From contig NBAY01000006.1 of NCBI GenBank assembly GCA_002794775.1, positions 620,001-684,000 of the forward strand: 64,000 nt of DNA, read 5' to 3'. Each line of letters opens with the position of its first letter. Within the stretch, counting starts at the first letter, position 1. The notes below the pieces were generated by a model that saw only the letters and a list, made by a program, of their open reading frames with translations, was not told the origin of the DNA and did no database searches. This DNA comes from Porodaedalea pini (lineage: Eukaryota; Basidiomycota; Agaricomycetes; Hymenochaetales; Hymenochaetaceae). A program made the translations under genes and the position numbers. This document shows, one piece after another, positions 3,648 through 63,105 of this stretch.

Positions 3648-6259
3648 ATGAAAGGTCTCAAAAAGACCCTGGTGAGCAATGTGTTGTGCTGTCGCTTTCT
3701 CTACTTCTCATCGCGTTTCCCAAGCAGTTAAACCGGAAGGACTCGAGTGGCAGCAAGGGAAAGACAGAAAAGACACCTTCCAGCGCGAGCAACGGCGTGC
3801 CCCCACCTCCACCGCCCAATAACGCTAAACCTCAACTTCCTCAAATCCCAACAACTGCCTCCTCGTCCTTGAACATATCTTTTGGTGGTAGCAACCACGG
3901 TGCACACACCAACGCCGGGTCGTCCAACGGTGCGCATGGTGCTCGCCCCGGCGGACATGTGGGGGCAGGTTCAGGGTCGGGCCAGGTTTCCGCGACACCG
4001 GACCGTCGGTTCTCGCAGCCAGATCGCGCATCGCCCGCTCCGCCCATCGTCGTTGTGAGTCCCGATACGCACCCCGATGCTAATGCACGCGGTGGATACT
4101 TGGGCCCGGAGCGAACGTCACTTGGTGGTGATGTGCCGCGCGCGGGCACGCTCAACCGCCTTCGCCAAACACCTAAAGACACGATTCCCATTATCGGCAA
4201 GCCTCCCCGCAAACAGCGCAGCAGCCGTTTCGTTCCGTCAGAGAAAGTGGAGATCGAGCGTCTGCCGCCGTTCAGCGGTGAGCTTTATCGCGGTTATCAT
4301 CGAGACGCGCCTTACTGATCGTTCTATGCAGAGACGCCGCCCCAGGAGAGGGCCGACCTCTTCATCAAGAAGCTTTGCCAGTGCAAAGTCGTCTTCGATT
4401 TCAACGATGCGAGTTCTGAGCTCAAGGGCAAGCAAGTCAAAGCGCAGACGCTCACTGAAATGCTAGAATATATTACGTCTCAACGCAACGTTATTACTGA
4501 AAATGTATACCCCGAGGTCGTCAACATGGTCCGTAGTCTTCAACATATACATTGTTGTCCCTATTTCTGACTTGTCATGCAGTTTGCTACGAATCTCTTC
4601 CGCTCTATACCCCCTCAAATCAACCCAACCGGTGACGCTTTCGACCCAGAAGAAGATGAACCAGTACTCGAACTCGCGTGGCCTCATCTTCAAATCGTCT
4701 ATGAATTTTTCCTTCGATTTGTCGAGTCTCCGGACTTCAATACCAATGTAGCCAAGCGCTACATTGATCAAACGTTCGTGCTCAATCTACTTGAGCTCTT
4801 TGACTCCGAAGATCCACGCGAGCGCGACTTCCTGAAGACGACGCTCCATCGCATTTACGGCAAGTTTCTAAATCTGCGCGCATTTATCAGGCGTTCGATC
4901 AACAACGTGTTCTTTCAATTTGTCTATGAGACGGAGCGGCACAACGGTATTGCAGAGCTGCTCGAAATCCTCGGCTCAATCATCAACGGCTTTGCGCTCC
5001 CACTCAAGGAGGAGCACAAGACGTTCCTCACGCGCGCGCTCATTCCGCTTCATAAGGTGAAGAGCCTGGTGCTATATCACCCGCAGCTCGCATACTGCGT
5101 TGTCCAATTCCTTGAGAAGGATGCGGGTCTTACAGAGGAGGTGCTACTCGGACTGCTCAAGTTCTGGCCGAAAGTGAATTCGCCGAAGGAGGTCATGTTC
5201 CTCAATGAGGTCGAGGAAGTCCTTGATGTAATTGACCCGGCGGAGTTCCCGAAGATTGTTGTGCCTTTGTTCCAGCAACTCGCACGTTGCGTAAACAGCC
5301 AGCATTTCCAAGTAGCGGAACGCGCGCTTTACTATTGGAATAACGAGTATATCGTCAACCTGATGACGGATAACTTGGCGACCATTCTGCCCATCATCTT
5401 TCCAGCGCTCTACATTAACTCAAGATCGCATTGGAATAGGTACGCGAGGGTTTGCTACTGTCTGTTTCTGCCTGCTGATGGCGGCTTAGGACGATTCATG
5501 GCATGGTCTATAATGCATTAAAAATGTTCATGGAGATCAACCCAGAACTTTTCGAGGAGGCAATGCAGCAATTCAAACACAGCCGCATTGCGTACGTTCA
5601 TTTAGAAGCCTCTCGAAGCGCTATGACTTCATTAGAGCTAATCCTTATCTCCCAGCGATCGCCAAAAGCGGGTTAAGATGTACGAGGATTGGATGAAGCT
5701 GCGAGAAATAGCAAGGAAGAACGCAGGCGGCAAGCTTCCGGAAGGCTTCGACGAGGCGGTCATTCCTCCACCGCCACCGCCCGTCGACGACATCGATATT
5801 GAGCACCTATCGATGGATCTCAGCGCCGCTTCGCTCGATGCGGAAATTGCGCAAGAACTTGACGAAAGTGGAATTGAGCGGGTGCCCATGGCAGACCCTG
5901 GCCTAGATGTACGTGTTTCTTCTGTACCTGCAGGCTGAACTCTGCCTTGGTTACCTTTCCCTGCTCTTTATCTGTACACTACGTCACTAATGCAGCCTGC
6001 TGACGTGGTCTAATCCTATCCTGGCTTGCAGAACTCGTATGGAGAGGCGATGCAAGACTTCGCGAATCCGGCAGTGAACAGCCAGAGCCCTCATGTTAGA
6101 AGGAAGAGCGTTCTGCCCGGTGAGCTCTGAAACGATTTTGGCGGAGATGAAGACTGATAGCTAATCATAGTCGACCCGTCCGTACTACGAGACCTTCAAG
6201 CACATCGGAGTCTAGATGATACACGCGGCTTCGTTCCCGGTGCTGCGGAGGGCAACTAA
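3648..6259 (+). CDS. RTS1: Protein phosphatase 2A regulatory subunit, B56 (B-prime) family
   Basis: Eight exons: 3648-3671, 3728-4277, 4332-4528, 4583-5439, 5488-5591, 5656-5908, 6032-6119 and 6171-6259, all with GT-AG introns and a continuous frame. The start MKGLKKTL and the low-complexity Ser/Gly/Pro N-terminal tail are usual for fungal B56 proteins. The B56 HEAT-like core begins near [15 protein letters not shown] and includes [28 protein letters not shown] and ALYYWNNEY, which are hallmark blocks. B56 proteins recruit substrates carrying LxxIxE motifs to the PP2A A/C dimer; yeast Rts1 acts in stress response, cell-size control and chromosome cohesion. The C-terminal tail after [15 protein letters not shown] is acidic and proline-rich. 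No lesion was seen. Confidence 0.95.
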
Positions 6260-6887: not shown

Positions 6888-7053
6888 CCCTAGTCACCAA
6901 TGTCGTCGTCTCTCAACATTTTGTCTTTGCTCGTCTTGATCATCGACTCCCACAACCTCCCACTCTCTGCTTTTTATCAAAACTCTAGGTGAGCAGGTGT
7001 CGTATTTTGCCTTGTATTGTCGACAAAGTCTAACGCGATTATAGACATACAGA

Positions 7054-9162
7054 ATGTCATCCTCAAAAGCCATCGGTATCGATCTCGGAACGACATACTC
7101 TTGCGTCGGTGTCTGGCAGCACGACCGTGTTGAAATTATTGCCAATGACCAGGGCAACCGCACCACCCCCTCATATGTCTCGTTTTCCGACACGGAACGT
7201 CTTATCGGTGACGCTGCCAAGAATCAGATCGCGATGAACCCCGTCAATACCGTGTTCGACGCGAAGCGTCTCATCGGCCGCAAGTTCGACGACGCCGAGG
7301 TCCAAGCCGACATGAAGCATTTCCCCTTCAAGATCCTCAACAAGGATGGCAAGCCGGTCATCCAGGTTGAGTACCGCGGCGAGAACAAGCAATTTGTAAG
7401 TCTATCTCTGATTATATGCGTCGACCTGAGTACCAATTCTGCGTTCAACAGACCCCTGAGGAAATCTCCTCCATGGTCCTCACCAAGATGAAGGAGACTG
7501 CCGAGTCATATCTCGGCTACACAGTGACGGAGGCCGTCGTCACTGTCCCCGCTTACTTCAATGACTCCCAGCGCCAAGCGACCAAGGACGCAGGTGTCAT
7601 CGCGAATCTCAATGTTCTTCGAATCATCAATGAGCCTACTGCCGCTGCCATTGCTTATGGTCTCGACAAGAAGGTCCAGGGCGAGCGCAATGTCCTCATC
7701 TTCGACCTCGGCGGAGGAACTTTCGACGTGTCGCTCCTGACCATTGAGGAGGGTATTTTCGAGGTCAAGTCCACTGCTGGTGACACTCACTTGGGTGGTG
7801 AGGACTTCGACAACCGTCTCGTAAATCACTTTGTTCAAGAATTCAAGCGGAAGAACAAGAAGGGTATGTCTTTTGTTCATTTCGCTGTTTATATTTAGAT
7901 ACTGACTTCTATTCTTCGTAGATCTATCCTCGAACCCGCGCGCGCTCCGTCGTCTCCGTACCGCTTGCGAGCGTGCCAAGCGCACTCTGTCGTCGGCCGC
8001 GCAGACTACGATCGAGATCGATTCGCTTTTCGAGGGTATCGATTTCTACACCTCCCTCACCCGCGCGCGTTTCGAAGAGCTGTGCCAGGACCTCTTCCGC
8101 TCTACCCTTGAGCCTGTTGAGAAGGTCCTCCGTGACGCCAAGATTGACAAGTCGAATGTCCACGAGATCGTCCTCGTCGGTGGTTCCACCCGTATTCCCC
8201 GTATCATCAAGCTTGTTTCCGACTTCTTCAACGGCAAGGAGCCCAACAAGTCAATCAACCCCGACGAGGCTGTCGCGTACGGTGCTGCCGTCCAAGCCGC
8301 CATCCTCAAGGGTGATACCTCTGAGAAGACCCAGGACCTACTCCTTCTCGATGTTGCACCTCTCTCCCTCGGTATCGAGACTGCTGGTGGTGTCATGACC
8401 GCGCTTATCAAGCGCAACACCACCGTCCCAACGAAGAAATCGGAGATCTTCTCGACCTATGCCGATAACCAGCCCGGCGTGCTCATCCAGGTCTACGAGG
8501 GTGAGCGTGCGCGCACGAAGGACAACAACCTCCTCGGCAAATTCGAGCTTTCCGGCATTCCGCCTGCGCCGCGTGGTGTTCCGCAAGTTGAGGTCACCTT
8601 CGACATTGACGCAAACGGTATCCTCAATGTCTCTGCCGCCGACAAGACAACCGGCAAGTCGAATCGTATCACCATCACGAACGACAAGGGTCGTTTGTCG
8701 AAGGAGGACATTGAGCGCATGCTCAAGGAGGCTGAACAGTTCAAGGCTGAGGATGAGGCCGAGGCTGCGCGCATCGCAGCCAAGAACGGACTCGAGTCAT
8801 TTGCGTACAACCTGCGCAACTCGCTCCAGGACGACAAGGTGAAGGCCAAGTTCGAGACTGCCGAAGACAAGGAGAAGCTTTCGAAGCTCGAGGCAGCCAT
8901 CCACGAGACTATCACTTGGCTCGACGGGAACCAGCAGGCGACGAAGGACGACTACGACTCGCGCCAGAAGGAGCTGGAGCAGATCTCCAGCCCGATTATG
9001 CAGTGGTTGTACTCCTCCGGCGGTGGTGCTCCTGGTGGTGCTCCCGGCGGCTTCCCTGGTGCAGGCGGCTTCCCTGGTGCAGGCGGTGCGCCTGGTGGCT
9101 TCCCAGGTGCTGGTGCGGGTCCGGGCGGCGACGAAGGCCCCAGCGTGGAGGAGGTCGACTAA
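7054..9162 (+). CDS. SSA1: Cytosolic Hsp70 chaperone (Ssa type)
   Basis: Three exons, 7054-7395, 7452-7863 and 7922-9162, plus an intron in the 5-prime leader (6989-7044). Clear Hsp70 signatures are present: [13 protein letters not shown] at the N-terminus, [14 protein letters not shown] in the nucleotide-binding domain, and [10 protein letters not shown]. The substrate-binding domain and helical lid follow, then a Gly/Ala/Pro-rich tail ending EEVD. That tetrapeptide docks TPR co-chaperones and marks the cytosolic or nuclear class, not BiP or the mitochondrial form. The protein folds client proteins using ATP. The codon choice is strongly C-ending, as expected for a highly expressed gene. Intact. 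Confidence 0.97.
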
Positions 9163-11620: not shown

Positions 11621-14600
11621 TCAATCCCTAGGAGTCAAGACGACAGGCAGCTTCCCGACCTTCATCACGAAGAAATCCTCCAGTCCCTCTTCCCACTCGC
11701 ACGGATCATATCCACCAGCAAGTCTCATATCGAACCTTTGGACAAGAGTCGCGACGACCATGCGCATCTCCAGCAGAGCGAGATTCTTCCCTGCGCAATT
11801 TGCCGGGCCCAATGAAAAGGGGATGAATGCGGCTGTATTGGTTTGGAATCTACCGCTCCCGGTCGCGTCCAACCAGCGCTCGGGGACGAACTTATTGGGT
11901 GCGGGAGATAAATAGCGCTCGTCCCGGTGCAGGACGTATGGCGGGACGTACACTGCCGCGTTTTCCGGAATGAACCTTTGACGAAGTGAGTTGAGGAAAG
12001 TTTGAAGAACGGGGAAGATGTTATTCAATACACACCTGCCTGCGACCCATTTCCCACCGCTCATTTCCAATGGACTTCGTTGTAATGAAGTAGGAACAGG
12101 GGGTTGAAGGCGGAGGGCCTCGTTACTGTCAAAAGAAGAAGGAAAAAAAACCGACATCAGGAGCCGCCCTTTTTCACATATCAACAGGAAGTAGAACGTG
12201 CACAACAGCATTCAAGTAAGGCATTCCGGCGAGTTTGACAGCGTCAAATGGATCTCCTTCCCCGTGCGGGAAAACGGCATCTATCTCAGCCTGGAGACGT
12301 TTGTATGCTTCACGGTGCGTAAGGATATAGTAGAAAAGACCGCCTAGAACCGTCGAAGTCGTGTCTGCGCCTGCTATGATGGCTATGAAGGTGTCGTTGA
12401 TGGCTTGGTCCGGGGGTACTTCCATGTCTTCGAGCGCATCTTCATTTGTCTGGAGAGCGGTTTCCATGAGCAAACTGATTTCGGAGTCACTCGACTTACT
12501 ATGAAATGGAACAGATCCTTTTTCGTCGATCCCTTTTGCTTCCGGTCTTTCAAGCATTTCATAGCAAAATGGATAAATCGTGCTTGATCCTTTGAGCTTA
12601 GAGAGAGACGCCAGATAAACCTGCAGATCCAAGGAATGTGCTCTAGAATTCCGACCGCTCTGTCCCGCTGATAATTCTGAGTTCCGGTTGTTAGTGAATA
12701 GGAATCAGATGATTGAGTTCGAGGGAGACGTGTCTAATGGGTCAATACCCTCGTTCCGGTCGAGTTCCGTGGGTTCCGGATCGCAGGATTCGGGTTGCGT
12801 GCGTTCCGGTGTGTCAGGGGCAACGGAATTGACGAAGCGTACTAATAGGGAAGTGTTCGAAGCGTAGCGCCAGCAGAGCGCTCGAGATGTGTGGGGGATC
12901 GTCGGTGGCTGTGTCAGAAGACACGGAGACGCGCTAATACTAACACGACTTTCTTGGAGCGGGATTGTCCTCAGGATGGACGGCTGGTCCCTGTGCTCAA
13001 CAGACGTCGTCTGGAGTACCAGAGAGCGGGGCGAGATATGGGACTTAATTCAGAAGATACGAGACGAGAGGGAATCGAAGTCGAGATAACGAGAACGAAG
13101 CGAAACGAGGTAAGGACGGAACGGATGGAACGAGCGCAACGGGCGCAACGCGAATAAAACAAAGTCGAGGTGAGCGATTCGAGTCACTGAGGCACCGAGG
13201 CGTACCTAGAGACAGTCCTGAGAGATAGCACACGAAGTTAGGCGTCGAAACTCGGGGGTGGAATTGCTGTTCTATCTACAACATTCGACGCTCTATAAAT
13301 ACTAAACAAGTGTCCTGCGTAAACATGAAAGGCGAAATAAAATAAGACGAGTCCTATTGTCCTACCACTGAGCCTCCTGAGTGTTCCTTTGAGCGGCTCC
13401 ACGATCCGAACTACTGAAAGGCGGGGACGGCGCGTGTTGACTTGGCGTAGCATCGGTGAGCTTCAGGATCCTTTGTACGGAGCCGGAACGACCAATGCCG
13501 GGCTGCCGCATGTTCGTTAGACAAAGGCAAATGAACAAACCTTTGGCAAGGTCGAGTGGACACGCACACAGATAAGTGCACCGGGGTCGGTCCGAGTAGC
13601 TGATGCGTGCGATCCGGTCGTTGCGTGTGTTCCATGTTCGGGTAATCACCGCCGACCCGGGTGTACCGCTTTGCTCGATTGCTGAGTCGAGGCTCTTCGA
13701 CTTCGTGACGTACATCACGTGCGTTCCGCTCGTTCCGTGCCCAACGAACCGGTTGGTGTTACATCTCCTCGGGCGTTTTAAACAGTGACTGTCCCTAGTC
13801 ACTCCGTCCTTCTGAATCCTCTCGTGTTCGTGGGATAAGGCGTCGTATGTTGGCCTCGTGTAGTCCGCACCCCCTCTCTCACCTTCATCCATCGCGACAT
13901 CAAAATGTCGTCTTTCCAGCTTGGAATTTCCGCAGAGCACTTCCAGGCGATGGCGCAGCTCGAGCGAGAGGTTCAGGAATGGGAGCAAGGCATCCTCAAG
14001 CAGTGGTCGGAGTTCCTGTTCTGGTCGTTGTTGCCAGGGGTAGTACGTGCCTGGATAGTCGGCTTGGCCGAGTTTGATGTGAGTATTAACATTCACCATG
14101 AGCGACTCTATCCCTGACGCTCTCGTTAGTACATGCGGTCTGAGCTTCGTCGCCGAACGACCGAGGTTCGCCGTCTCGACATGTGGACTCATCTGCCAGA
14201 GAGTCGCTGGCAGCAGATGCACGATTACCTGAATGCGGCGAGGGATCGCTACGGGATGCGGGATAACGAGACCATGCACGCCCTGGCTGATGCGGCGATA
14301 GCTGCAGAAATGGAGGTGGCAGCACAAAATGGTCCTGGGAGTACGGAGTTGGACCAGGAAATGGCTGCATACGAGCGGCACCAACGAGTTCGTCAGGCGA
14401 GCGAGTCTGAGGAGCTTGATGAGCTGATCCGTCATGGTCAACAGTCTCTCCCCGTATTGTCGATGCGGTGCAGCGTGTCTGCCCAACCAACAGCGCCTGA
14501 TCTTGGGTCTCCTGGCGGAAGCGATCTGGCTGGTCCCACTTGGACGGGAAGCGTGCAACAGGCAGAACTGGTGCAACGAGCGCAATGGGCGGAACGGACG

Positions 14601-17600
14601 GAACGGCCGCAACCAGCGCAACAGGCGGGATCTGGTCCTGACGAAACTGATCTACCGATCGAGGATGATCAGAGTGATGCGTCTCGTACTTCTTCGACAC
14701 GGGCGTGGGCGGCAAAGGAGATGGCGACTCGTGCTGCTGCCTGGGCTCGTCGTCGTCCAGTTTTTCCTCCTCGAGCACTAAGTGAAGAGTCAACTCGGAT
14801 GCTCGTTGACGAGAGTCCTGCTAGTCCTCCACCTGGTTTTCGCGGGGAGTCAGATTACAGGGGAAACAACTCGGACTCAACTGTTCGTGGCTCGCGGGGT
14901 CGATCCATGAGTGCTGCTTCGGGCGAGTACAGCAACAGCAGCAGCAACAAGGGTCAGGTCGACGACGGCGAAGATGACGAGGACGAAGATGAGGACGTTG
15001 ACGATGACGCCGAAGGAAGCATTGACGAAGGAAGCGATAGCGAGGAGGACGAGGAAGACGAGGACAACAGCAGCAGCAACATCCATTCTGCTGGATGTGA
15101 TCAGTGCCTGATGCGAGGCATAGAGTGCACTGGGACTCCTGGGAAGGCGTGCATGAGTTGTCGGAGGCTCCGGATCAGGTGCAAGCTGTCGACGCATGGC
15201 TGGGTGATGAACCGCGTCATGCATGAGCGGGTTGCGCAGGCTCCCCCTCCTCGGTCACGGTCTGCTGCTAGGTCGTCTGCAAGACCTGCTACGAGTGCGG
15301 CGCCAAGTACTCCAGTGAGGCTGCCTCCTGGAGCGTCGATGAGGGCTCCTGCGAGAGCACCGACGAGAGCGTCGACGAGACCACCAACAGGTCCAGTGAC
15401 TGCTGGGCCTAGTCGTCTGGCTCGTTCTAGTGTCGGGGTCGGCTCGTTCGATGACGGGGTTGAGGAGCTGTCCGTTCATTTGTCGGAGGCTGAGTCGGAT
15501 CAGGAGTTGTCTGTCCTAGGTCGGGACGCTCGAGTGCTGGAGCGCACCGCTTCAGAGCTGGAGCGGCAGGCGGCGTTGCTGCGAGATAGAGCAGCTGCCA
15601 TGTGGTCTAACGTTGCGTCGATGCAGCGGGCTCGGGAGTTGAGACGGGATCGGGAAGAAGGCTTGGGGAAAGGAAAGGGGAAGGGAAAAGCGAGGTAGCG
15701 TCAGGACGTGCGGAATGCATGCAACGCACGGAACCCTCTATTTAGTCGAAAAAAGAAACAGAAAAGAAAAAAAAATTGTACTTCTATAATTTTGTTTTTT
15801 GAATTAAATGTTTTCTGAGTTTTGTGTTAGGGTTTTTTGTTAAGGGAAAGAAATGGGGTAAGGAAATGCCAGGGGAGTCGAAATGAAGTGAAGAGATAAA
15901 TTGGGACGGAACCGGCGGAACGGCCGGAACGCTCAAAAACGGCTTGCAGTTGAATGCGTGCCCGAGCAGATTAATAGGATAGGATTACGAGAAGAGATGA
16001 TGGAGAATTAAAGAAGAAAGGTGCATACATGGAGTCCTCAGAGCGGATCAGAGGTGAAGCCTAGGCATCAGAGTCAACAGACTCGGAATCAACGTCTGAG
16101 ACGTCGTTCTGGTCCTCATCTTGCTCTTGGGCGTCATTCATCATTTCGAGCTCTTCCTCAGAGTCTTCTATGAGTTTGGTAACTGGAACCGAAAGATTAG
16201 GATGGGGGAAATAGGGAATAAGTCGAAACGCAGCAATTCTAAGGTGGGAAACTGCCCCATTGAGTTCCGCCATGATATACGATCCTCCCTCCGTTTTTCG
16301 AACGACCACGTAAGGGCCAAGGTACTGAGGTTTCGTCTTTCGGTTGAGTTCCATTTTCGTTCGTGAGTTCCTAAGAAGAACGAGTCGTCCTGGTTGGAAG
16401 TTGTAGTCTTTAATAAGATGTCGGTTCGCCTCCTCGAACTGTCTTGCATACGCGTGCCTGGCATCGCTGACCTTCTTGGCGATGGCTTCTAAATCCTCGG
16501 GGTGTTTTTGAAGCTGGCGAGCTCGGATGGAGACGAGTTTGGTAGTAGAGAGCGGGGACTCGATTGGGGGTACGAGATATGTAGCTTCAGAGATATCGAA
16601 GGGGAGCAGCGGTTCTACTCCATGGACCATGAAGTACGGCGACAGTCCTGTGGCTCGTAGGATAGTGATTCATTCGGCCCAAAACACTGAGTGAGCGTGC
16701 TCGTGCCAACGCTTCTCGTTTCCTTCTGCAGCTTTCATGAGAGCTTCCTGAACGTCGAAATGTTTTCGTTCGATTAGTCCGTTAGCGCGTGAGTTGTAAG
16801 CTGAAATACGGATGTGATTGATGTGGTAGTGATCTTTCAGCCAATCCAGCGCAGCAATGAACGGCTTTCCGTTGTTGGTAACGAGTTCTGGGCAAGCTCC
16901 GAAGCGGCAGAGTATATCCTCGAATATGAACTGGCCGATTGCTTTGCCAGTTTCAGAGTGGAGGAGACGGAACTCGGGGTATCCTGAAAGTGAGCATCGT
17001 GCATGGACAATGTAGCGATAACCTCCTGCCTTTGGCATGACTTTCGTGTCGATGTGCACCTTCGAGAATAGGGGAGCGATGGATGGGACCGTTGGTGGAA
17101 TAAGAACTTGCTTCGTCTGCCTGATCTGGCACTCGTGGCACGTCTTAACGTAGTGCTTGACGTCGTGTCCAAGGGAAGGCCACCAGAATCGATCGAGGAG
17201 TCTGGCTCGTACCGAATATACTCCCTTATGTCCGAGGTCATTGTGGGCGGCTTTGACGAGTGTCCATCGACGTTCCGGTTCGATGACTACCTGGTGCTGC
17301 TCGTTCCGTGCTTTCCGCCACAGCTTTCCAGCTCGGACGAAGAATCCCGTCGCGTACCTGACTAGTGCGGGGATGTCCTTCTCTGGGATTGACGAAATTA
17401 GCAGTGGGTCTTCTAAGAAGCGTTTTACGTCATCGAGACGACGATCCTTGGCACGCGCCGAGTCGGAGGCCGGGAACAATTCTGGACTGCCTGTTCCGGG
17501 TGTTCCGTTCGTTGCATCCGTTGCATTCGATCTGTTTGTTGCATAGGTGGAACCGACGGAATAAGCTGGACCTAAGATAAACGCGTAGGCTTCGTCAATC

Positions 17601-20600
17601 CATGCCTTGTAGTCGTCCTCTTCTTGCGGATCGGTTGGTGCAGCGCGCCTATGAGACAATCCGTCCGTGCCGGTGAACTCCAAAGCTGGTACGTGTCGTA
17701 GGATGAACGAGAACAAAAGAATGCCGGCGATCCACCTATTGATGGTAGCGTTAGGTTGTAAATCGGGGTTGTTGATCATCCCTTTGATGTACGCTGCGTC
17801 CATTTCCACGATGAGCTTGCGAACTCCAATGAGAAAGAGACGGTTAGCTTGCAGGGCTCGGAATAGACCAAATAACTCGATTTTTGGCTGAGAATACGTA
17901 GCTTGGACCGAGTTCCAGTTGATGGACCCAAACCTGTTGATACGTCGATGGCCGTCAGTGTGCTCCTGGCCAAGCGTCCAGCCGACTCCGATGATGGATG
18001 AGTCGACAGCGAGTACGACCTCGAGATCTGACTGGTAGTCGATAGCGCAGAGGGCCGGGCACTTTGTAACTGCTTCCTTGAGAGCATCCATGGCGTCCTG
18101 TTCTTCAATTCCCCAGTCGAAAATTATGTTCTTCTTCGTCAGACGAATGAGCGGGCGAGCCATCTTGGCGAAGTCCTTGATAAAGACTCGTAAGACTCCT
18201 GCTGTGCCGAGAAATCCCTTGACCTCGGTGACTGTGCAACACAATGGCCAGTTGCGGACCTTCTGAATCTTAGAGTCGTCTGGTTCTCGACCCTGGTAAG
18301 TGCACTTGTGACCAACAATAATGCCGTATGGGGCGCATATATGTAGCTTTTTCACTGAGAAGGTTCCTCCAACAACTTTGACTCGTTGAAGGATTCAGTT
18401 GACGTCCTGAAGGTGCTCCCAGACAAAGCGTCGAATCCCTGGGTTCTCAGGGATTGTTTCGTATGATCCATCGGGGAGTTCGTACCGCATCTTTGGTCCT
18501 CTGGCCATAACGTCGTCGGCGTAGGGGGTCGTAACTTCCGGGATCTCGTCTTGCAGAATGAACGTGAGGTCGTTGTGAAGAATTTGAAGCGAATTCGTGT
18601 ACCCCATGGGGAGTACGGTGAGATGAAACGTTCCTAGGGGCGTCTGGAAGGTAGTCAGATCTCGGGAGCTTTCGTGTAGGGTTCGCTGGTCGAAGGCGAC
18701 GAAGAGATCCAGTTCGGTGTAGCAGGCACGGCCACCAAATTGCTCGGCAAGCATGTCGACGTTTGGGGGCACAGCCGCGTCGCGTATCGTAATTCTATTG
18801 AGATCTTGCAGATCGTGGACGAAGCGAAGCGAGACTCTGTCCTTCTTCATAACCGAAAACATCTGTGATCGGTAAGACGAGTTTGAGGGCTCGTAGACTC
18901 CGGTGTCAATCTTCTCGCATAAAAGCTTGATCGTTGCTTCTCGAATTCCCGGTGGAATGGGAATGTTCCTGTGGACCCACGGAACGTGCGGAACTGTCGG
19001 AATGCGTACTGGGTCGAACCAACGCGGGTCCAACGCTCCTCGGTCAGTTTCTACCCAGGCTAGCGCACCTTCTTGTAACATGATCAAGTTGATGACTAGT
19101 TTTCGTTCCTTGGGCCAAAGAAATTCGCAGGGATCGATGTCGAAAGTGTCGGCTCGTTCCTGCGTAAACTTGCCGGTTGGCGTAAAAGCGAAAGGTTTGG
19201 TAGGGAGTACTGGCATCCCTTCTAGCGGGCTGGGGTGCTTGCGTCGCACAATCCTGAATTCCTCGGGGAGCGTTCCAGCGACGGGACAAACTTTATTGGC
19301 GACTTTCTTGTAAGCCAGAACTGCGGGATCGGCGCCGTCTGGGGTCTCGAGGAGACACGAGTCGTATTGAGCATCGTTGACGTCGAGGGATAATTTATCT
19401 GACGAAAAGAAAAGGTGGCGATGGCGTTGTTCATAAATAGAGACCGGAATCGTAGAGTCTAAGATCGAAAATACTGAATGTGAAGTTTTGGGAGCGCATA
19501 TAGCGAGCTGTTTGTCGTCTCTCCGATGCTGGGACATCAGTTCCTCGACCACTGAAAACCCGACTGCTTATTGAAGTGAGCGATGGTGCGGACTCCGGTT
19601 GCGACCTTGCATTTGCGCCAGTGTTCAGATGGATCGGTGAGCGTGATATGCTGGTCTCCTGAGAGGAAGTCCTTTGTTTCGCACTCAGTGATGGCAAAGA
19701 ATGGTCGACCAAGTAGGGCCTCGAACGGAGCGTTTCGAACCACCTGTGCTTGGAGCGAGACGTCGACGCCAGCAACGGATACTTTGACATTCTGGATCAT
19801 CCCCAACGTAGAGGAACGACCTGTATCGGCAGACTCGAGAGTCATTGACTGGTCAGCGCGTAGATGGATACCTAATTTCTCCCATACGTCTTCGCGGATG
19901 AGGCAAATGACGGCACCTTGGTCGAGAATACATTCGACTTCCAATGTGTCCGCGAAAATTGCCTTGACCGTCCGTAGCGGCAGACATTCCTCGGCAGCTG
20001 GTCCTACGTCGTGATCCGGACATGCGCTGTGTGCGACGAGGCCTTCGGTGGACCAGGACGAGCCAGGATGGCCGGTTCCGGGTGTTCCGGGTGTTCCGGG
20101 TGTTCCGTGGGTTGCACTCGTTGCGCTCGTTCCGCCTGCCCCGACCAGATGGACGTCTCCTACTGTCAAACGCTTTGTCGTGGTAAGGTCTTTCATCTGT
20201 TTTCGTACGTCGGGGGCCAGAGCTAACAGTTCTCGTTGCGAGATGGTGATGTTTGAGTCGAGAGAGCAAGTGAGGACTGTCTGCGTGACCGCAGCGTCTT
20301 CGACTGGGGACACGTAGCGGTACTGCGGCTGCGTAGATGATGTCTTGGGTGCGTCAGCGGGCTGCGGCTTTGCTGGGCGGGTCGAGGCCTCTGGCTTTGC
20401 TGCGGGGACTGGAGTTGTCTTGGGTTCTGTTCTAGGGGGCGCAGTCGGTTTAGGGGGAACTTGTACTCCGTCAAACTTAGCTTTTCGCGCCGCACTGGTC
20501 CTCCTCCTAGCTTCTCCTAGCAATACCTCGAGTCTCTCTACCTCGTATTCGTCTTCCGGGATCTCCTCAATCGTCGCTGAGGCCACGAGAACGGGTTCGG

Positions 20601-23600
20601 GGAATGTAGTTTCGGAGTCGGCGACTTCGACTAAGTTGACTGTATGCACGACTTGATCTTTTCCTAAGAATCCGTCGATACGTTCCATGATTGTTCGTCC
20701 AGGGACTGTGCTCGGGACGAAGCTCCCGTTGGCCAGGGTTACTCGTCCTTCCACATTGCGTGCGCATTTGCCGTTCTGGATATATTCAAGGACTTTTGGG
20801 CAAGATCGAATGAAATGGCTTAGCTCCCCACAGAACGTGCACCCTGGGTTTCGTGGCTGCAAAGGTACAGGTGCTGCTGGTGACGTCGAGACTGGTGCGT
20901 TGCTTCTAGTCGTACCTGATCCTCGTCCCATGGCGTTGAGCTGGACTTGGAAGCTCTTGAGTGTTTCCATGACTGTGCTGAGATCGACCTCCTCCTTTTT
21001 GATGGTAATCGAGCTGCTGGAAGTCGAGGTACGTGGCGCCTGAGCCGTCGAGCCACTGAATGACGCTCCTCCGAGGATGAAGTCGGCGTGCTGGATGATA
21101 GTTTCGATTTTGTAGGGGTCGCCTTCTTCGTGATCGGACTCCTTGATCTCTAAGCGCCGAAGAAGCGCTGTACGTAAGTCGCCGGTGATTCCTCTCAGGA
21201 ATGTGTGCTGGGATTCTGGCTTGGTGAGCTTATCTTTCGCGATAAGATAGTCGGATCAAACTACAAAATCTCGCTTATACTGTCCCAGATCTTCGCGAGA
21301 GCGAATCCCTTGTTCGGCTCGGTCGACGACCATTTGCTCGAACTCGGCGCGGGAGTAGCGTCGTCCTGCTCTGAGGCTCAGGTATAGTCCGGTGGTTGCT
21401 TTCTTGATGTCGTTCCATACGATCGGGTTGGCTTTGAACTTGTCCAAGGTTTCCCAGAGTTCAGCGACTTCTGCCGAGGCGTAGTACCTGGCGTATTTGG
21501 CTTTCGATCCGTCGTCCCAATTGAGATCGTCGGCGAGGAACTCAATATCCTCGAAGTAACGGGGTAGGTCCCTGGCGTTGGAACCGTCGAAGTGCGGGGC
21601 ATCGCGCTGCCCGCGTCGTGGTGCTCTCGTCGCCATTGGTGGCTGATAGATAGTGTGGAGGGACGAGCGTAAGATCTGAGGAGTTAACGATGAGGTAAGA
21701 CATTGTCGAGTGGCAAGAGTCCTGGACGCTAAAGGAGCTGCTAGCGGAATGGACGGGTCAGACGGAACGGACGGAACGACCAGGGAAGAGAATACCGTGG
21801 CGGGACTGGATGAAGGAAACTGTAGATGCGATAGACGAAGAGTAGGGCTTCCTGGCGGCGAGGTGGACTGCTGGGAATCGGTCGGGGATCGGGATTCTGA
21901 GGTGGACTGCGGAGCGGATGGTTCTGCTGATGTTGGAGGTAAATTCGAGCCGAGGAACGAGAACGGGGACGAGATTGTAGACGGAAATGATGACGGAAAG
22001 TTTGATGAGTCTTCTGATACCGAGGCTTGGACTGCTGAAGATGGAGGTGAAGGGGAGTGATCGTCGAGATCCTCTGACCTGTGCGGATCGGATGATAAGA
22101 TGCGGTCAACGGTTTCTTCTTCACCTGAGTCTGTTGATTGAATCTGTGCTTCTCTGGCTTCACGTTCCAGCCTGGCTAGAATCCACTTATTCGGTGGGCG
22201 ACCTGAACGTGACACGATTGAAACCCCCTCGCGGTGGGCTCCACTTGATAATTCTGAGTTCCGGTTGTTAGTGAATAGGAATCAGATGATTGAGTTCGAG
22301 GGAGACGTGTCTAATGGGTCAATACCCTCGTTCCGGTCGAGTTCCATGGGTTCCGGATCGCAGGATTCGGGTTGCGTGCATTCCGGTGTGTCAGGGGCAA
22401 CGGAATCGATGAAGCGTACTAATAGGGAAGTGTTCGAAGCGTAGCACCGGCGGAGCGCTTGAGATGTGTGGGGGATTGTCGGTGGCTGTGTCAGAAGACA
22501 CGGAGACGCGCTAATACTAACACGACTTTCTTGGAGCGGGATTGTCCTCAGGATGGACGGCTGGTCCCTGTGCTCAACAGACGTCGTCTGGAGTACCAGA
22601 GAGCGGGGCGAGATACGGGACTTAATTCAGAAGATATGAGACGAGAGGGAATCGAAGTTGAGATAACGAGAACGAAGCGAAACGAGGTAAGGACGGAACG
22701 GATGGAACGAGCGCAACGGGCGCAACGCGAATAAAACAAAGTCGAGGTGAGCGATTCGAGTCACTGAGGCACCGAGGCGTACCTAGAGACAGTCCTGAGA
22801 GATAGCACACGAAGTTAGGCGTCAAAACTCGGGGGTGGAATTGCTGTTCTATCTACAACATTCGACGCTCTATAAATACTAAACAAGTGTCCTGCGTAAA
22901 CATGAAAGGTGAAATAAAATAAGACGAGTCCTCTATTGTCCTACCACTGAGCCTCCTGAGTGTTCCTTTGAGCGGCTCCACGATCCGAACTACTGAAAGG
23001 CGGGGATGGCGTGTGTTGACTTGGCGTAGCGTCGGTGAGCTTCGGGATCCTTTGTACGGAGCCGGAACAACCAATGCCGGGCTGCCGCATGTTCGTTAGA
23101 CAAAGGCAAATGAACGAACCTTTGGCAGGGTCGAGTGGACACGCGCACAGATAAGTGCACCGGGGTCGGTCCGAGTAGCTGATGCGTGCGATCCGGTCGT
23201 TGCGTGCGTTCCGTGTTCGGGTAATCACCGCCGACCCGGGTGTACCGCTTTGCTCGATTGCCGAGTCGAGGCTCTTCGACTTCGTGACGTACATCGCGTG
23301 CGTTCCGCTCGTTCCGTGCCCAACGAACCGGTTGGTGTTACACCGCATTCGAATTTCAGACCGTAGATATGTAGAAGATGATTTATATGAACTTCATAGT
23401 CTGCTCGAGCGTCGCTACTACCCTGTTGTCGTCGCCATCACGCATAAGTTCTAGACCGCCGTTGAAGCTGTGTTGGCATTGTCAGATCGGGACCATAGAG
23501 GAATCTGCCAGCGGGTTGCAATGATTCTCACACCAAGTCACCCATAAAGTCATACCTAAGCCGTCAATTACGCGCTGCACTTGATAAAGCCGGGAAATGC

Positions 23601-24543
23601 CTAACTTACGTGAAGAAATCCATCCACTTGGCTACATCGGCGGGGTTCCCTTCGCTACTTCCATGACCGACCCGCTTGCTAAGTTCCTCCACGAGTTGTA
23701 GAACTCGATTAGCTACCGTGGGATGGTAGTCCTTGAGCGCGGTGGACGTAAAGGCGTGATTCCACAGCTTCCGACGCTCACGGTGTTCATCAACATCGCG
23801 CAGAGTGACAATATTCGGCGTTGATCCGGGCTGGACATGAGCGATATACTCTGTCAACAATGTTAGACGAAAATGTTCCAAGCTTGGGCGAAACCACAAA
23901 AGCTCTGCGCAAGAGGTCCTTTTCGTGTCCCATCTATTCCGAAAATGGGCTGAATCGCGTCAACGTCGACAATGGAAAGTTCGTTCGGCCCTATGATGAA
24001 ATTTGATCAGTCTTACCATTGAAAAAGCCTGGAAGTCGCGAATAACTCACCGACGCGAACACAAGGTCCGTACTTGTCATGTAGCCTCTTGAAGAAGATG
24101 TGCTGTTTACCGTCATATGTGTATAGCAAAGTAGCGAGCTTCGATACTTTCAGAGATAACGGGCCAGGATGCTTTGCAAGTGGATGAAAGGGCGAGACGC
24201 GATATATGATGATCGACAGTGTAAGGACGGAGTAGAAAAGGCAATAGGCGGGTAGAACACTGGAAATCGACGATCCAAGGTGTCTTGATACGAAGGGAAA
24301 AGGTAACACAGGAACAGCTCCGAGTAGCAGGAACAAAACGAAGAAGTTTGCTGGCTCGACCTCAAACTTGTTATAGATTTTGTGAACAATCTACGGCATA
24401 AACTGAGTATTATAGCTCCCGACAAGAATAGACAGAACGTGACTCACCAGCGCACAAAGGCATACAAGGAGTTGGGAATCAGTGAAACTGAGAGAAGGGA
24501 GGGAGCTCGCTAACTGGTCAACGAGCAGGCTCAGTACAGGCAT
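11621..24543 (-). CDS. Cytochrome P450 monooxygenase with a 10.7-kb retroelement in an intron
   Basis: Ten exons in one phase-consistent frame (about 574 residues). The 5-prime exons are 24448-24543, 24051-24390, 23895-23990, 23610-23850, 23532-23555 (a 24-nt microexon) and 23393-23467. The 3-prime exons are 12500-12659, 12202-12449, 12036-12125 and 11621-11975. The N-terminal region is hydrophobic (membrane anchor). The I-helix motif is AGADTTS, the ExxR is EALR, PERW follows, and the haem loop is FSLGPANCAG with its Cys ligand. Fungal P450s oxidise small lipophilic compounds; the substrate cannot be told. The intron after exon 6 would be 55 nt without the inserted element. The exon 8 donor appears to be GC instead of GT. 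No stop codon interrupts the spliced frame, but splicing of a 10.7-kb intron is doubtful in a fungus, so the gene may be silenced. Confidence 0.8.
12669..13763 (-). repeat. Element 1, 3-prime LTR
   Basis: 1,095 bp, direct repeat of 22246-23342. By eye the two LTRs differ at about 27 single bases and one 2-bp indel. The ends are TGATAATT (left) and GTTACA (right) on the plus strand. A TATAAATA at 13294-13301 points to the right on the plus strand, toward the antisense gene. CGGAAC-like arrays occur at 12751-12810 and 13114-13154. Confidence 0.95.
13905..15698 (+). CDS. Element 1 accessory gene, antisense to gag-pol: Zn2Cys6-type cysteine-cluster protein
   Basis: Two exons, 13905-14078 and 14130-15698, separated by a 51-nt GT-AG intron, give about 580 residues with no stop. 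The N-terminal ~120 residues look helical and charged (start MSSFQLGISAEHFQAMAQLE). An Ala/Arg-rich part and a long Asp/Glu run (about 336-372) follow. At about 381-409 there is a six-cysteine motif with spacing C-x2-C-x6-C-x7-C-x2-C-x6-C. That is the spacing of the fungal Zn2Cys6 binuclear cluster, with basic residues (RRLRIR) between the last two cysteines. A Pro/Ala/Arg-rich linker, a probable coiled coil near 509-560 and a basic GKGKGKGKAR tail complete it. It lies inside the element, between the 3-prime LTR and the end of pol, and converges on pol. The function is unknown; DNA binding is inferred from the motif only. Confidence 0.75.
15699..16060. other. Element 1 spacer between the antisense gene and the pol 3-prime end
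   Basis: A 360-base A/T-richer spacer where the two convergent element genes end. It includes an A-run near 15750-15775 and a CGGAAC array at about 15904-15932. No ORF is supported. Confidence 0.6.
16061..19561 (-). pseudogene. Element 1 pol: reverse transcriptase, RNase H and integrase, broken by two in-frame TGA codons
   Basis: Continues in the -1 frame from the gag-protease ORF. The RT carries LRFVHDLQDLN, the catalytic block reads YADD (more often YIDD or YLDD), then GIRRFVWEHL. RNase H (LAVDSSIIGVGW, KLIVEMDAAYIKGM) and integrase follow. The integrase shows an HHCC-type end (CHECQ), a first Asp in HIDTK and a Glu in NGLIERK. The second catalytic Asp appears changed to Asn (TNNG where TDNG is usual, codon at 16874-16876). 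The frame is cut by TGA at 18395-18397 and 16670-16672, with the same frame resuming directly after each. Both fit CGA-to-TGA changes. The integrase C-terminus ends with a short acidic tail, and I see no chromodomain. Confidence 0.88.
19537..21636 (-). pseudogene. Element 1 gag-protease, broken by one in-frame TGA
   Basis: The first in-frame ATG is at 21636 (MATRAPRRGQRDAPHF), but the frame is open without an ATG upstream to at least 22215. The capsid-like part includes RYFEDIEFLADDLNW. A TGA at 21256-21258 interrupts the capsid; the same frame then continues (AKDKLTKPESQHTF) to a CCHC zinc knuckle (CTFCGELSHFIRSC) and a retropepsin-like domain. That domain reads ILDQGAVICLI, with DQG where DSG or DTG is usual, and later LLGRPFF. 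The ORF ends at 19537 with a slippery site just before its stop. Protease is therefore in the gag frame and RT in the next frame. Thr/Gly/Pro repeats (SATSATHGTPGTPGTPGTG) are encoded by a TGTTCCGGG array. Confidence 0.85.
19555..19561 (-). promoter_or_regulatory. Candidate -1 ribosomal frameshift heptamer GGGTTTT of element 1
   Basis: In the gag frame the codons read TCG GGT TTT CAG, so the heptamer G GGT TTT fits X XXY YYZ. The downstream pol frame is exactly -1 relative to gag, and the gag-frame stop follows 18 bases later. I see no strong stem immediately downstream, only short ones. Confidence 0.6.
21637..22226 (-). other. Element 1 leader: long ATG-less open frame in phase with gag
   Basis: From the likely primer site to the first gag ATG the gag frame stays open for about 190 codons. 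The reading is Ser/Pro-rich (for example SPSPPSSAVQASVSEDSS) and starts with basic, protein-like sequence (PPNKWILARLEREAREAQ). There is no ATG. It may be a 5-prime part of gag read from a non-AUG start, a stretch that lost its ATG, or an accident of low stop density. Confidence 0.45.
22227..22243 (-). promoter_or_regulatory. Candidate primer binding site of element 1
   Basis: Just inside the 5-prime LTR (2-nt gap), the element strand reads TGGAGCCCACCGCGAGG. It begins TGG, as expected for a site pairing with the CCA 3-prime end of a tRNA. The matching tRNA is not identified. Confidence 0.5.
22246..23342 (-). repeat. Element 1, 5-prime LTR
   Basis: 1,097 bp, paired with 12669-13763. Of about 27 single-base differences between the pair, about 26 are transitions at CpG positions. 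It is flanked on its outer side by CCGC, the right copy of the target duplication. Confidence 0.95.
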
Positions 24544-52544: not shown

Positions 52545-52696
52545 AGCGTATCAGGTTGGTGCACAGTGCAGAACAAGCCTAACAAACGAGCTGAAGTGAG
52601 GTGAGCACACCGACGAGACGCGTGGGAAGTACGACGTGGCCGGGACGGCTTGCCGTTGATGTAATTTGTAATGCTCGGAGCTGAAGTCAACTTGCC

Positions 52697-54280
52697 ATGA
52701 ACGTCTCATCTCTCCGGAACACTTCTTTCAATACTGTCATAGTCTTCTCAATACTCCTGTAAGTTGCTCTTATATTCTACAGCGAATGGCACGACAAACA
52801 CTCTGTTGTCAAATATACAGATGTCGACTACTGCGTCTTCACTGACGCAGCTCGATTTCTCCTGCACTCGACACGTGCGACTGGAGGCAGGCCAGCCAAC
52901 ATTGCGCAAGGGGTTTTAGGAGAATATCTTGGTTTCGGAGAGTGAGTAATAGCAGCTTTCATAGTGCTATGTATTGAGTTGACATGGTTATGAAGTCCAT
53001 ACTACCGCGAAGCCTATCGCTATACACCCCTGCTGGCTTTGATTATGACGCCCAACATTTTTCTACATCCATCTTTTGGAAAGTATATCTTCTCAGCGTG
53101 CGATATCATCGTTGGAGTCCTCCTGTACAAACTCCTTCTGTTGACGGCGTTGCCCCAAGCTTCACCCCAAGCAACGAACGAGGCGCGCGAGCGTCAAGCA
53201 ACATTCTGTGCATCCTTGTATCTTCTCAGCCCAATGGTCTTCTCTATTCCCACGCGCGGCTCGTCAGAGTCTACGCTTGGAGCACTCGTAATAGGGACGC
53301 TCTATCTAGTGATGCTCTCGGGGAAGACTCAGAGGACTTGGGACGCGACAGCTGCCATGCTCGGAATCGCGACACATTGGAAAATCTACCTGCTGATCTA
53401 CGGCGTGAGCCTCGTTGCTGTCATGACATCTGAATCCGGGAAGAATATGAGCTTCAAGGACTGGGCGAGAAACCTGTTGAGTGTGCAAAGTATTCGATTT
53501 GCGATTATAAGCGCAGGGACGTTTATGCTCCTCAATGGTGTCATGTACCTCATGTACGATTTCTTTCTTTCTTTACACTCCTTTACAAATACTGTCTCTT
53601 CTCTTGCTGACAGCTGGGGATACCCATTATTCTTTACGAAACATACCTTTATCACATCCACCGGCTGGACCACAAGCACAATTTTTCGCCATACTGGCTA
53701 CTCATGGGCCATATACTTCACGTACCCGGCATACGCACATCTGCATCCCGGGCGTCCAGCACTATGGCAACGCTTCGCACGGTCTCCATTTGCTTCGTTT
53801 GTGCCGCAGATGACACTGAGCTTGGGCTCGGGTCTGGCATTCGGACGCGCTGGCTCTCAGCATCTTCCATTCACATGGTTCGTTCAGACAGCAGCGTTCG
53901 TTACCCTCTAAAGTATGCACGTCGCAAGTAAGTCATAAAACGGACACAAATTGGAACAACAAAGCTAATATATATGTGCGCAGTATTTCCTTTGGTACTT
54001 GACTATCCTACCGCTCGTGTTCCCGTCGCTCGCTATCACTCGGACTAAAGCCATTTCGATGGTCGCAATTTGGGTCGGCGCTCAAGCCCTGTGGCTCAAG
54101 TCTGCTTATGACCTCGAGTTTGTTGGGAAGAACGTCTACTACCATGTCTGGGCGTGCAGCGTCCTGTTCCTGCTGGTCAATTGCTGGGAGCTCTGCCAGA
54201 TCATGCTCGCATACCAGTGGTCAAATGCTGAAGATGAGGAAAAGCGCACAGCGAGCACGGAACTGGAGAAAGACATCTGA
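52697..54280 (+). pseudogene. GPI14: GPI mannosyltransferase I (PIG-M/Gpi14), degenerate copy 1
   Basis: Clear homology to PIG-M along the whole length: the DxD-type [16 protein letters not shown]-equivalent [47 protein letters not shown] and YFLWYLT. PIG-M adds the first mannose to GPI precursors in the ER lumen. Lesions are a TAA at codon 22 (52760-52762; copy 2 has CGA there), a local frameshift near 53625 (two extra bases), a compensating shift near 53705, and a two-base loss just before the final exon near 53911. The first intron is preserved, so it is not a retrocopy. Homology to copy 2 begins six bases before the ATG. Confidence 0.85.
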
Positions 54281-55470: not shown

Positions 55471-55884
55471 TGTTAGGCGGGAGTCCGGGAGACGACTCGA
55501 ACTGGGCAGGCCTCGGCTGACTGTCGTCTGGGACGTGCTATACTCGAGCGTAGACTCGGGACACGCTTACTCAGGCTAGGTCGTCGCGGAGGTAAGAGGA
55601 TTAATACAAGTCTAAACTAATACAAGGGGGACGAGTCTCACCTAGGTCGTCGCGGAGGTAAGAGGAAAAGCAGAACAAGGAGTTCATGCGATTCCTGATA
55701 CCTTATATAGCGACGACCGTGAGACTATATTACCTAACATTACATAACGAGTGGGAATGGAACGAATGAAGGTAGTGTGGGAATGATTGTGTAAGATGGG
55801 TAAATATAATGAAAAGGACGAATATAATAAAGGAAATGGTAAAAGGGAAAATAAAGGAAAAAGGTGAAAGTTCAGGTTCTAACA
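55471..55884 (-). repeat. Element 2, 3-prime LTR
   Basis: 414 bp, identical by eye to 61300-61713. It includes a 25-bp direct repeat within the LTR. The pol stop codon abuts its inner edge. Confidence 0.95.
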
Positions 55885-61299: not shown

Positions 61300-61713
61300 T
61301 GTTAGGCGGGAGTCCGGGAGACGACTCGAACTGGGCAGGCCTCGGCTGACTGTCGTCTGGGACGTGCTATACTCGAGCGTAGACTCGGGACACGCTTACT
61401 CAGGCTAGGTCGTCGCGGAGGTAAGAGGATTAATACAAGTCTAAACTAATACAAGGGGGACGAGTCTCACCTAGGTCGTCGCGGAGGTAAGAGGAAAAGC
61501 AGAACAAGGAGTTCATGCGATTCCTGATACCTTATATAGCGACGACCGTGAGACTATATTACCTAACATTACATAACGAGTGGGAATGGAACGAATGAAG
61601 GTAGTGTGGGAATGATTGTGTAAGATGGGTAAATATAATGAAAAGGACGAATATAATAAAGGAAATGGTAAAAGGGAAAATAAAGGAAAAAGGTGAAAGT
61701 TCAGGTTCTAACA
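61300..61713 (-). repeat. Element 2, 5-prime LTR with TATA box and predicted RNA start
   Basis: 414 bp. On the element strand a TATATAAGG (61530-61538) is followed 33 bases later by GTTCTGCTTTT (61495-61505), where the RNA is expected to begin. A 25-bp direct repeat lies at 61405-61429 and 61471-61495. Confidence 0.9.
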
Positions 61714-61758: not shown

Positions 61759-63105
61759 CAGAGTATTCCAAATGATAGATGGATCTGAGCCTTGGTTGGT
61801 GGCCTGCTATTGTGGGTCCCTCATGAATATTGACAGGGCATATGTGATATGAGTCTGCCTTGCATGCTGCACAATGCACCTGGACATTGTGTGAGAATTG
61901 ACTGTACAAGGCTGTGCCATGGGTGCATGTGGACTTTGTAAAGGTCAATTGTGGAGAGAATTATTACTTTGTAGTGTGTTGGGCTTGTCTTATCATAGTG
62001 TACTGCCTCATGAAGCCTTGTATTGCGTACAGTGTAAAAAAGGATGGCCTTACAAATGCTGCATGCATGAAGGGAAGTTATTTGCTTTTGGGTAGGGGAA
62101 ACTGTAGTCTTGTGGTTGTGTAAGGACATCTTAGAATATTATATGTACAGTATTGTCATAAATGTGCAGTCTACTCTTGGGTGGCCTTTAATGTCGTAGC
62201 ACAGATAATACATGTAGATGTAGGATCTCTGATATTACAATCCTTATAACTGGTGGCCATGTCTTTTATTTTGTCATCGGTGAAAATACGAGAAGGTCAG
62301 AATAACTCAATTGCGTACTACCTATTGGCCCGGGCAGCAATCGTTTCCTTGAGCTCGTCTTCATATGCATCATCGTTAGTGAGAGGAACTGACCAAGGAG
62401 AATTTACATACAAGTATTCTCAGTCATCTGCACTAGTCGCAAGCGTCTGAGGTGAGTGGGTGAAAATAAAGGGTATTTTATATTACAGATTTCTGGCTCT
62501 CGACAAGCCATTATGAGTGCGATATTGAATCATATGAAAGTAAAGTAAAATAAAGACAATTCAAAGAAAAGAGTACCTTCCGGCAGTCAATGCAAAAGTA
62601 GAAAATAACAAAATAAGAAAGACTTATCATTGTGAGGGTTCAGATGAAACCGAATGTCATCAGCCGTCCCAAGCCAGTGTGCCTCGTGCCCTAGAAACGA
62701 AGCGGTGCGCTCGTGATACAAATCGCCCCGGACGTCCACAGTCACATTGATTCACAACGTTGTCCGGCGGCTTGCAGTATATGAATGTCGCCAGAGTTAC
62801 TGAAAACAAAAGCGTTATTTGTGATGTCAAGAGTATTCTCTAGTTGACCGGAAAAGTGACAATTGAGTATTACCAGCGTGATTTCAGGGCGGGACATGGA
62901 CTACCAATTCCATGTTCTGGGATAGATGATTCTTTTTTATAGTTTCAACTAGCTGCTGTCGATATTGTCCAATACTTGTTTGAGTTGCTATTATTTGGCT
63001 CGGTAAACAATTGGGTATCGAGGATGAAAACTGAGAAGGTGAGATTTACGCGTAGGGCATTGACTCGCACCACGTGAACGCGCTCTTGCCCTTGCCTGGC
63101 TTGCC
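61759..63105. other. Intergenic region upstream of PIG-M copy 2
   Basis: 1.35 kb. The left part (to about 62250) is repeat-like A/T-rich sequence. On the minus strand, short protein-like stretches occur near 62330-62420 (DDAYEDELKETIAARAN) and 62640-62760, but no start, splice pattern or family could be established; these may be exons of an unidentified or broken gene. The last part should contain the PIG-M promoter. Confidence 0.4.

Follow-up and report, generated by a model that had tools for sequence, protein, structure and literature searches.

The stretch of DNA analysed here, referred to as the window, comprises 64,000 nt of contig NBAY01000006.1 of the fungus Porodaedalea pini, and all coordinates are positions within it. 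It contains a Ty3-type retrotransposon, whose family we call family A, which carries a gene in antisense orientation between pol and its 3' long terminal repeat (LTR). This antisense gene, abbreviated aORF, occupies positions 13905–15698 on the plus strand and encodes 580 amino acids, including a cluster of six cysteines (Cys6). We describe its recurrence in diverged element families, the constraint on its C-terminal part and the accumulation, in the DNA of the elements, of a hexamer starting with CGG, which is CGGAAC in family A and CGGTAC in the related family B. These features are consistent with the aORF product being a sequence-specific DNA-binding protein which most likely recognises the CGG word of its own family, marks whole copies and perhaps counters their silencing, a reading to which we give a probability of about 0.5.

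The antisense gene, its copies and its constraint

The aORF begins with an ATG located 141 nt in from the edge of the 3' LTR and is divided into two exons (Table 1). An earlier note on this sequence had described a spliced frame of 580 residues on the strand opposite to the element, between the end of pol and the 3' LTR, with an acidic run, six cysteines spaced x2-x6-x7-x2-x6, and a C-terminal coil followed by a basic tail. The coordinates, the intron and the length of the frame were all borne out, as were the acidic run and the cysteine spacing; a C-terminal helix is predicted by a single-sequence model, and the protein ends in the basic tail GKGKGKGKAR. In 2000 order-1 simulations of 13764–16060, the longest frame without a stop on a single strand reached 322 codons, with a 99th percentile of 240, while 522 codons were observed, and therefore a chance origin is not expected. 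The earlier note had also drawn an argument from the openness of the aORF in a copy whose gag-pol carries stops. This openness carries little weight, because few CGA codons are at risk in the aORF (9/581, compared with 45/2080 in the gag-pol frames).

In a search of the source genome (53.3 Mb in 201 contigs), exon 2 gave 47 matches, 14 of which span from residue 1 or 2 through the end. Three of these full-length copies are stop-free, and each of the other 11 has at least one TGA. The intron measures 51 nt in two of the 14 copies and 52 nt in the remaining 12, and exon 1 is gap-free throughout; as the length change is limited to the intron, this pattern favours splicing. The acceptor is TAG in all 14 copies, and the donor is GT in 10 and AT in four. 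The aORF is therefore likely to be spliced, as the earlier note had supposed. All six cysteines are kept in 24 of the 27 family A loci that cover the motif, which corresponds to 21 of 23 copies, since four copies are each present as two loci.

A second family of elements, family B, was recognised by aORF matches only 30–35% identical to exon 2 of the window element. Ten of its loci were examined with their surroundings, and in every one the aORF lies antisense, beyond the pol end of an element on the opposite strand. These elements are 60–69% identical to the window element in reverse transcriptase (RT) and 58–70% in RNase H-integrase, and their gag is 34–49% identical in part to that of family A. 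All six cysteines are present in 9/9 family B loci. The aORF of one family B element, L031, has a first exon of 97 codons, a 55-nt intron of the form GTGAGT...CTGAC...TAG, as in the window element, and a second exon of 617 codons; two later acceptors would likewise preserve the frame. Searching the genome with this second exon gave 74 matches, the final six of which are family A copies. Among more distant elements, at least 25 have an RNase H-integrase 47–51% identical to that of the window element (76 of 2039 candidates scored), and in all three that were sampled a six-cysteine antisense frame lies just past pol. Two of these, L045 and L046, are alike and form family C, and the third, L047, is different from them and is assigned to family D.

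CpG decay accounts for most of the differences between copies. In order to estimate omega (dN/dS), it was excluded and the remaining differences were compared with a spectrum-matched expectation; the resulting P values are only guides, because the copies share ancestry and several parts of the gene were tested. From the Cys6 cluster to the end of the gene, omega in family A was 0.52 for all variants (P 0.008) and 0.31 for variants shared by at least two copies (P 0.0003), and in family B it was 0.28 (P 0.002), with 0.48 for the whole of exon 2 (P 0.003). Shifted-frame controls gave 1.14–1.73 for all variants, and RNase H-integrase of family B, used as a control, gave 0.21. The part of the protein from the cluster to the tail is under purifying selection in both families. 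Over the whole family A gene, omega was 0.62 for shared variants (P 0.009) and 1.37 for single-copy variants, and selection in the former with drift in the latter is the pattern that should be expected of a working element gene. The middle part of the family A gene gave 1.15 for all variants, and the first 130 codons of exon 2 in family B yielded five events only. A cruder first pass had given 0.37 for 15450–15695; its integrase control, at 0.77, was noisy from misaligned copies, and the later analysis used local filtering and the family B control.

Judging from these sequence comparisons, the aORF is an accessory gene that a fungal Ty3 lineage has kept over time. The stable cargo gene proposed in the earlier note is upheld by the further copies, by the same position in diverged families and by the constrained C-terminal part.

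The cysteine cluster and the family-specific CGG words

Fungal Zn2Cys6 clusters have the spacing C-x2-C-x6-C-x5-12-C-x2-C-x6-9-C, and CGG is their classic half-site. The aORF clusters of family A (x2-x6-x7-x2-x6) and family B (x2-x6-x7-x2-x7) fit this pattern, and the spacing is x2-x6-x8-x2-x6 in L045 and L046 and x2-x6-x8-x2-x7 in L047. The Pfam profile of the family, PF00172, was absent from the matches of exon 2, the top match being a sub-threshold TFIIA (E 0.06). A 48-residue segment of family A matched PF00172 in two stretches at 17.6 bits, below the 21-bit cut-off, and the better stretch placed profile positions 1–14 on the second half of the cluster. A PF00172 search of the source genome gave 45 matches over the cut-off, and among the 60 matches listed none lies at the antisense genes found with exon 2 of the window element or of L031.

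Profiles of each cluster half were built from Zn2Cys6 clusters of the host (20 loci examined, seven with the whole motif in a single frame). The first half of the family A cluster scored −4.8 as a first half and +1.5 as a second half, and its second half scored +8.0 as a first and −2.8 as a second. Family C gave the same direction, as did the first half of family D, and the first half of family B was ambiguous; the second halves of B and D differ in length and fall outside this scoring. In a leave-one-out control, 7/7 first halves and 4/6 second halves were assigned correctly, which makes this a small test. The halves thus look swapped, at least in families A and C, and the cluster resembles Zn2Cys6 clusters rather than belonging to them. 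Of the Zn2Cys6-type identity given in the earlier note the six-cysteine spacing stood, and membership fell short of the profile.

A single-sequence model of 15060–15695 (212 residues) predicts a long C-terminal helix at its residues 143–202, with a predicted local distance difference test (pLDDT) of 83–98 over residues 141–200 in a model whose overall predicted template modelling score (pTM) is only 0.32. Short helices of low confidence appear at both CxxC in the same model. A model of the 52-residue cluster by itself was set aside because its confidence was too low, and a sequence search of the PDB returned no match. Altogether, the aORF protein is likely to bind DNA, as the cluster would suggest.

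CGGAAC exceeds expectation more than any other hexamer in the window element, with 38 copies (a mean of 7.6 and no more than 17 in 60 simulated runs), including 12 same-strand pairs at 9-bp spacing. L031 contains 80 copies of CGGTAC, most of them solitary. Across 15 element loci, CGGAAC dominates in 5/5 of family A (23–38 copies against 4–6 of CGGTAC) and CGGTAC in 10/10 of family B (39–80 against 2–21 of CGGAAC). Order-1 z-scores are 10.4 for the A word and 27.7 for the B word, compared with a top value of 6.6 in three 10-kb stretches of host DNA. The words occur on both strands (43 and 37 in L031, 15 and 23 in the window element), which points to DNA rather than RNA as the target. In family B they are found in every part of the element at 5–16 per kb, with 10.4 in RT and 9.5 in RNase H-integrase, and they fill gag, pol and the aORF, coding sequence included. 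The gag-pol region of L031 has 45 CGGTAC, in all frames, where codon choice would predict 8.95, and that of the window element has 15 CGGAAC against an expected 5.5.

The B word is clearly conserved, as judged from eight copies per reference, L035 being left out. Non-CpG changes affected 5/1616 word positions compared with 609/35455 in the surroundings when L031 was the reference, and 6/1395 compared with 489/36030 with L034. Other CGGNNN words, when pooled, gave 127/8519 (L031) and 85/6961 (L034); single words vary, and some are equally low. For the A word the corresponding figures are 0/438 and 203/20359. Genome-wide, triple arrays number 195 for CGGAAC at 9-bp spacing and 146 for CGGTAC at 10-bp spacing, and reversed-pattern controls gave none. 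Some of the CGGTAC triple arrays are paired about 4.2–4.3 kb apart (C1:540594 and 544901, C3:1708974 and 1713277, C35:106441 and 110627), and these pairs may represent a second, short element with the B type of word.

One source of CGGAAC arrays is a young element, L070 (C17:609250–612950), whose terminal repeats are identical over 631 bp each; the repeat reaches both ends of the examined stretch, and is therefore at least 631 bp long. It has one frame of 754 residues, the only other frames of at least 130 residues being two that overlap it on the same strand, and it carries 24 CGGAAC and two CGGTAC within 3.7 kb. The 754-residue frame is about 26–30% identical to gag of the window element (pairwise E 1e-17 and 6e-16) and contains a C-x2-C-x4-H-x4-C knuckle; a Pfam search with it gave no match. 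At the DNA level, only stretches of 27 and 34 nt are similar to the window element, the former of which adjoins the 5' LTR in the window element, where the primer site is expected. The gag of L070 is no nearer to family A than gag of family B is, and its word is nevertheless of the A type, which suggests that the word is useful in trans; it is also possible that this is an old shared word. The spacings of CGGAAC arrays on C7, C21 and C28 hint at more copies similar to L070.

The window element and its surroundings

The features of the window element are collected in Table 1. Between its two LTRs there are 26 substitutions, 25 of which are of the CpG type, and one 2-bp gap, indicating a young insertion that has decayed almost exclusively through CpG mutation. 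The sequence CCGC is found at both flanks.

Table 1 Features of the window element and its antisense gene.
Feature	Position	Strand	Remarks
3' LTR	12669..13763	-	9 CGGAAC words
Four-word CGGAAC run within the 3' LTR	12753..12808	-	
aORF exon 1	13905..14078	+	58 codons, begins with ATG
aORF intron	14079..14129	+	51 nt, GTGAGT...CTGAC...TAG; from sequence and copy comparison
aORF exon 2	14130..15698	+	522 codons and stop
aORF acidic stretch, residues 314-373	14895..15074	+	net charge -26 across residues 331-390
Six-cysteine cluster, residues 381-409	15096..15182	+	Zn2Cys6-like, halves apparently swapped
C-terminal helix, probable coiled coil, then basic tail	15486..15665	+	single-sequence model
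Three CGGAAC words just beyond the aORF	15907..15930	+	9-bp spacing
gag-pol frames (gag, protease, RT, RNase H-integrase, pol C-terminus)	16061..22281	-	in-frame stops break this copy
Five CGGAAC words within the gag-protease frame	20075..20134	-	four with 9-bp spacing
5' LTR	22246..23342	-	8 CGGAAC words

Pieces of a cytochrome P450 flank the element on the minus strand (11624–12211 and 23609–23959), the left one corresponding to profile positions 351–448 (E 8e-27) and the right one to positions 85–146 (E 0.005, under the cut-off). These are pieces of one gene, so that the element lies within it, in the same direction. Host genes on the plus strand include a PP2A B56 subunit (4571–5521) and an Hsp70 (7045–9162). 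Two further pairs of direct repeats, 55471–55770 with 61300–61599 (5829 bp apart, 100% identical) and 52691–52990 with 63100–63399 (10409 bp apart, 92%), probably belong to other mobile elements.

A possible recognition of the element's own DNA

We infer that the words are bound by the aORF protein from the Cys6 cluster, the CGG half-site of zinc clusters, the presence of the words on both strands and the parallel difference between families A and B in protein and in word. In the mechanism we propose, the cluster would read DNA while the C-terminal coil probably dimerises the protein, which would recognise CGGAAC (family A) or CGGTAC (family B) across the DNA of its own family. Sitting on the copies, the protein would prevent their silencing or activate them, in a manner similar to that of VANC proteins toward VANDAL transposons, and gag-only elements with the same word would be served in trans. 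The spread of the B words over the element body points to an effect on the whole copy, most simply through chromatin or methylation. The protein may thus have a role in element transcription, targeting or silencing, as the earlier note had proposed. A fuller version of this idea, which we hold tentatively and at rather less than even odds, is that of a self-recognition system in which each family encodes a half-swapped Cys6 protein in antisense and fills its own DNA with the matching CGG word, so that protein and word would co-diverge, with gag-only elements served in trans; such a system would be an independent fungal counterpart of VANC.

However, several observations weigh against recognition of a family word by the aORF protein. 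Families C and D carry the aORF, and no CGG word was found in their elements (L045–L047 and L068–L069); Pfam gave neither PF00172 nor any other zinc cluster for the segments of family B, L045 and L047. A maximal-order Markov model leaves the hexamers with a modest excess. The A word is concentrated in the LTRs (7.3–8.2 per kb) and in the spacer behind the aORF (11.0), compared with 2.3–2.6 in gag-pol, and its conservation is not distinctive, because several other CGG words in family A are also unchanged. CpG decay is just slightly lower in the words than elsewhere (0.247 compared with 0.301 in family B, 0.135 compared with 0.165 in family A), so that lasting protection against methylation, which we looked for, is not seen. 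With regard to constraint, omega for the whole family A gene was 0.84 when all variants were included (P 0.14), and in the first pass one of three antisense control frames of exon 2 had an omega of 0.69 (P 0.019). As for families C and D, slight excesses of CTCGGC (15 in L045, simulated top 13), GCTCGA (18 in L047, simulated top 15) and GTCGAA (22 in L069, simulated top 17) may represent weak family words, those of family D not starting with CGG.

The main alternative is that the aORF protein acts on its own LTR as an ordinary regulator of transcription, Gal4-like or comparable to retroviral antisense regulators, with only the words near the LTR being of importance and those in the body being by-products. 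The antisense gene of HTLV-type retroviruses lies near the 3' LTR and has a regulatory, nucleic-acid-related role, a likeness in position and regulatory role that is an analogy only; such regulators are also mentioned in work on antisense ORFs (PMC7264820, PMC11963269). An acidic stretch, a cluster and a coil are the usual kit of an activator, all three of which the protein appears to have, and the distribution of the A words is as such a regulator would predict. We nevertheless consider this explanation unlikely, given that the B word reaches the same density in RT and RNase H-integrase as near the ends of the element, that it is conserved, and that in gag-pol of L031 it is five times as frequent as codon choice predicts. 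It is also conceivable that the words serve integrase, gag, a host factor or chromatin, that the aORF protein has another job and that the match between CGG and a zinc cluster is due to chance. Such a separation would fit families C and D, which have the gene and no CGG word, as well as the gag-only element, which has the word and lacks the gene; set against it are the two related CGG words of families A and B, each accompanied by a six-cysteine protein, and the occurrence of the words on both strands, which would suit double-stranded DNA, and we regard this possibility as quite improbable.

Neutral processes explain less of the data. Meaningless spread of the words by repeat slippage or gene conversion, with the gene conserved for some other reason, would account for the runs with spacings of 9 bp (A) and 10 bp (B), which resemble local duplications, but the words of L031 are mostly solitary and lie in all codon frames, and B words change less than their surroundings, making this explanation very improbable. 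That the open frame is a functionless passenger or a chance frame is disfavoured, and we find it hardly credible: the whole-gene omega for all family A variants and that of the single-copy variants would be in its favour, while the frame is longer than in any of the 2000 simulations, occupies the same place in diverged families, has low C-terminal omega values in both and keeps its cysteines almost throughout.

Recognition of a family's own word by an element-encoded protein has a known counterpart in the VANC proteins, anti-silencing factors of Arabidopsis VANDAL transposons, for which binding and demethylation have been demonstrated (PMC5735166, PMC10398659). In these reports, the motif of VANC21, YAGTATTAY, accumulates in its own family, often in tandem, and related families have different motifs (PMC5735166, PMC10398659). 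What families A and B, and not C and D, share with them, on that description, is an element-encoded protein together with a short motif amassed in its own family. VANDALs are described there as Mutator-type DNA transposons, whereas here we deal with an LTR element, an antisense gene and a Cys6 cluster; the VANC motifs are described as mainly non-coding, whereas the family B words also fill gag, pol and the aORF; and VANC is established by binding and demethylation in those accounts, the present system being proposed from sequence comparisons.

Antisense additional open reading frames (ORFs) are found in plant Ty3 elements, such as that of Retand with TRP28, gene23 of Grande and that of RIRE2, and they are thought to bind DNA, their function being unknown; about half of Retand elements have tandem repeats in the region of the antisense ORF (PMC11963269, PMC7264820). 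As here, these genes lie between pol and the 3' LTR. A Pfam search of exon 2 with E values up to 1 did not list TRP28 (PF04195), and a family-wide word is undescribed in the accessible portions of the literature on Retand-type ORFs. The closest fungal case is brtn, the antisense additional gene of Boty, a Ty3-type element of Botrytis cinerea, which we compare by description only; the excerpts available make no mention of zinc (PMC7264820, PMC8365987). A survey of fungal Ty3 elements marks, in the legend of a figure, additional ORFs whose function is unknown (PMC2864245). A literature search, of incomplete coverage, found neither Cys6 antisense genes nor family-specific words reported for LTR elements of fungi. 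With the Zn2Cys6 factors of PF00172 the aORF protein shares six cysteines of fitting spacing followed by a linker and a coil; it differs in scoring below the Pfam cut-off, in the apparently swapped order of the halves, in the mid-protein position of the cluster and in being encoded by a mobile element.

According to the sources at hand, what antisense additional ORFs do in LTR elements is unknown (PMC7264820, PMC11963269), and a candidate target word for the protein of such an ORF is what had been missing. Two sister families with words one letter apart now provide such candidates, and the gag-only element provides a test of action in trans. If the proposed recognition is true, these elements would encode a variant of the zinc cluster with swapped halves, and their DNA would hold a DNA-binding code that influences codon usage in gag and pol.

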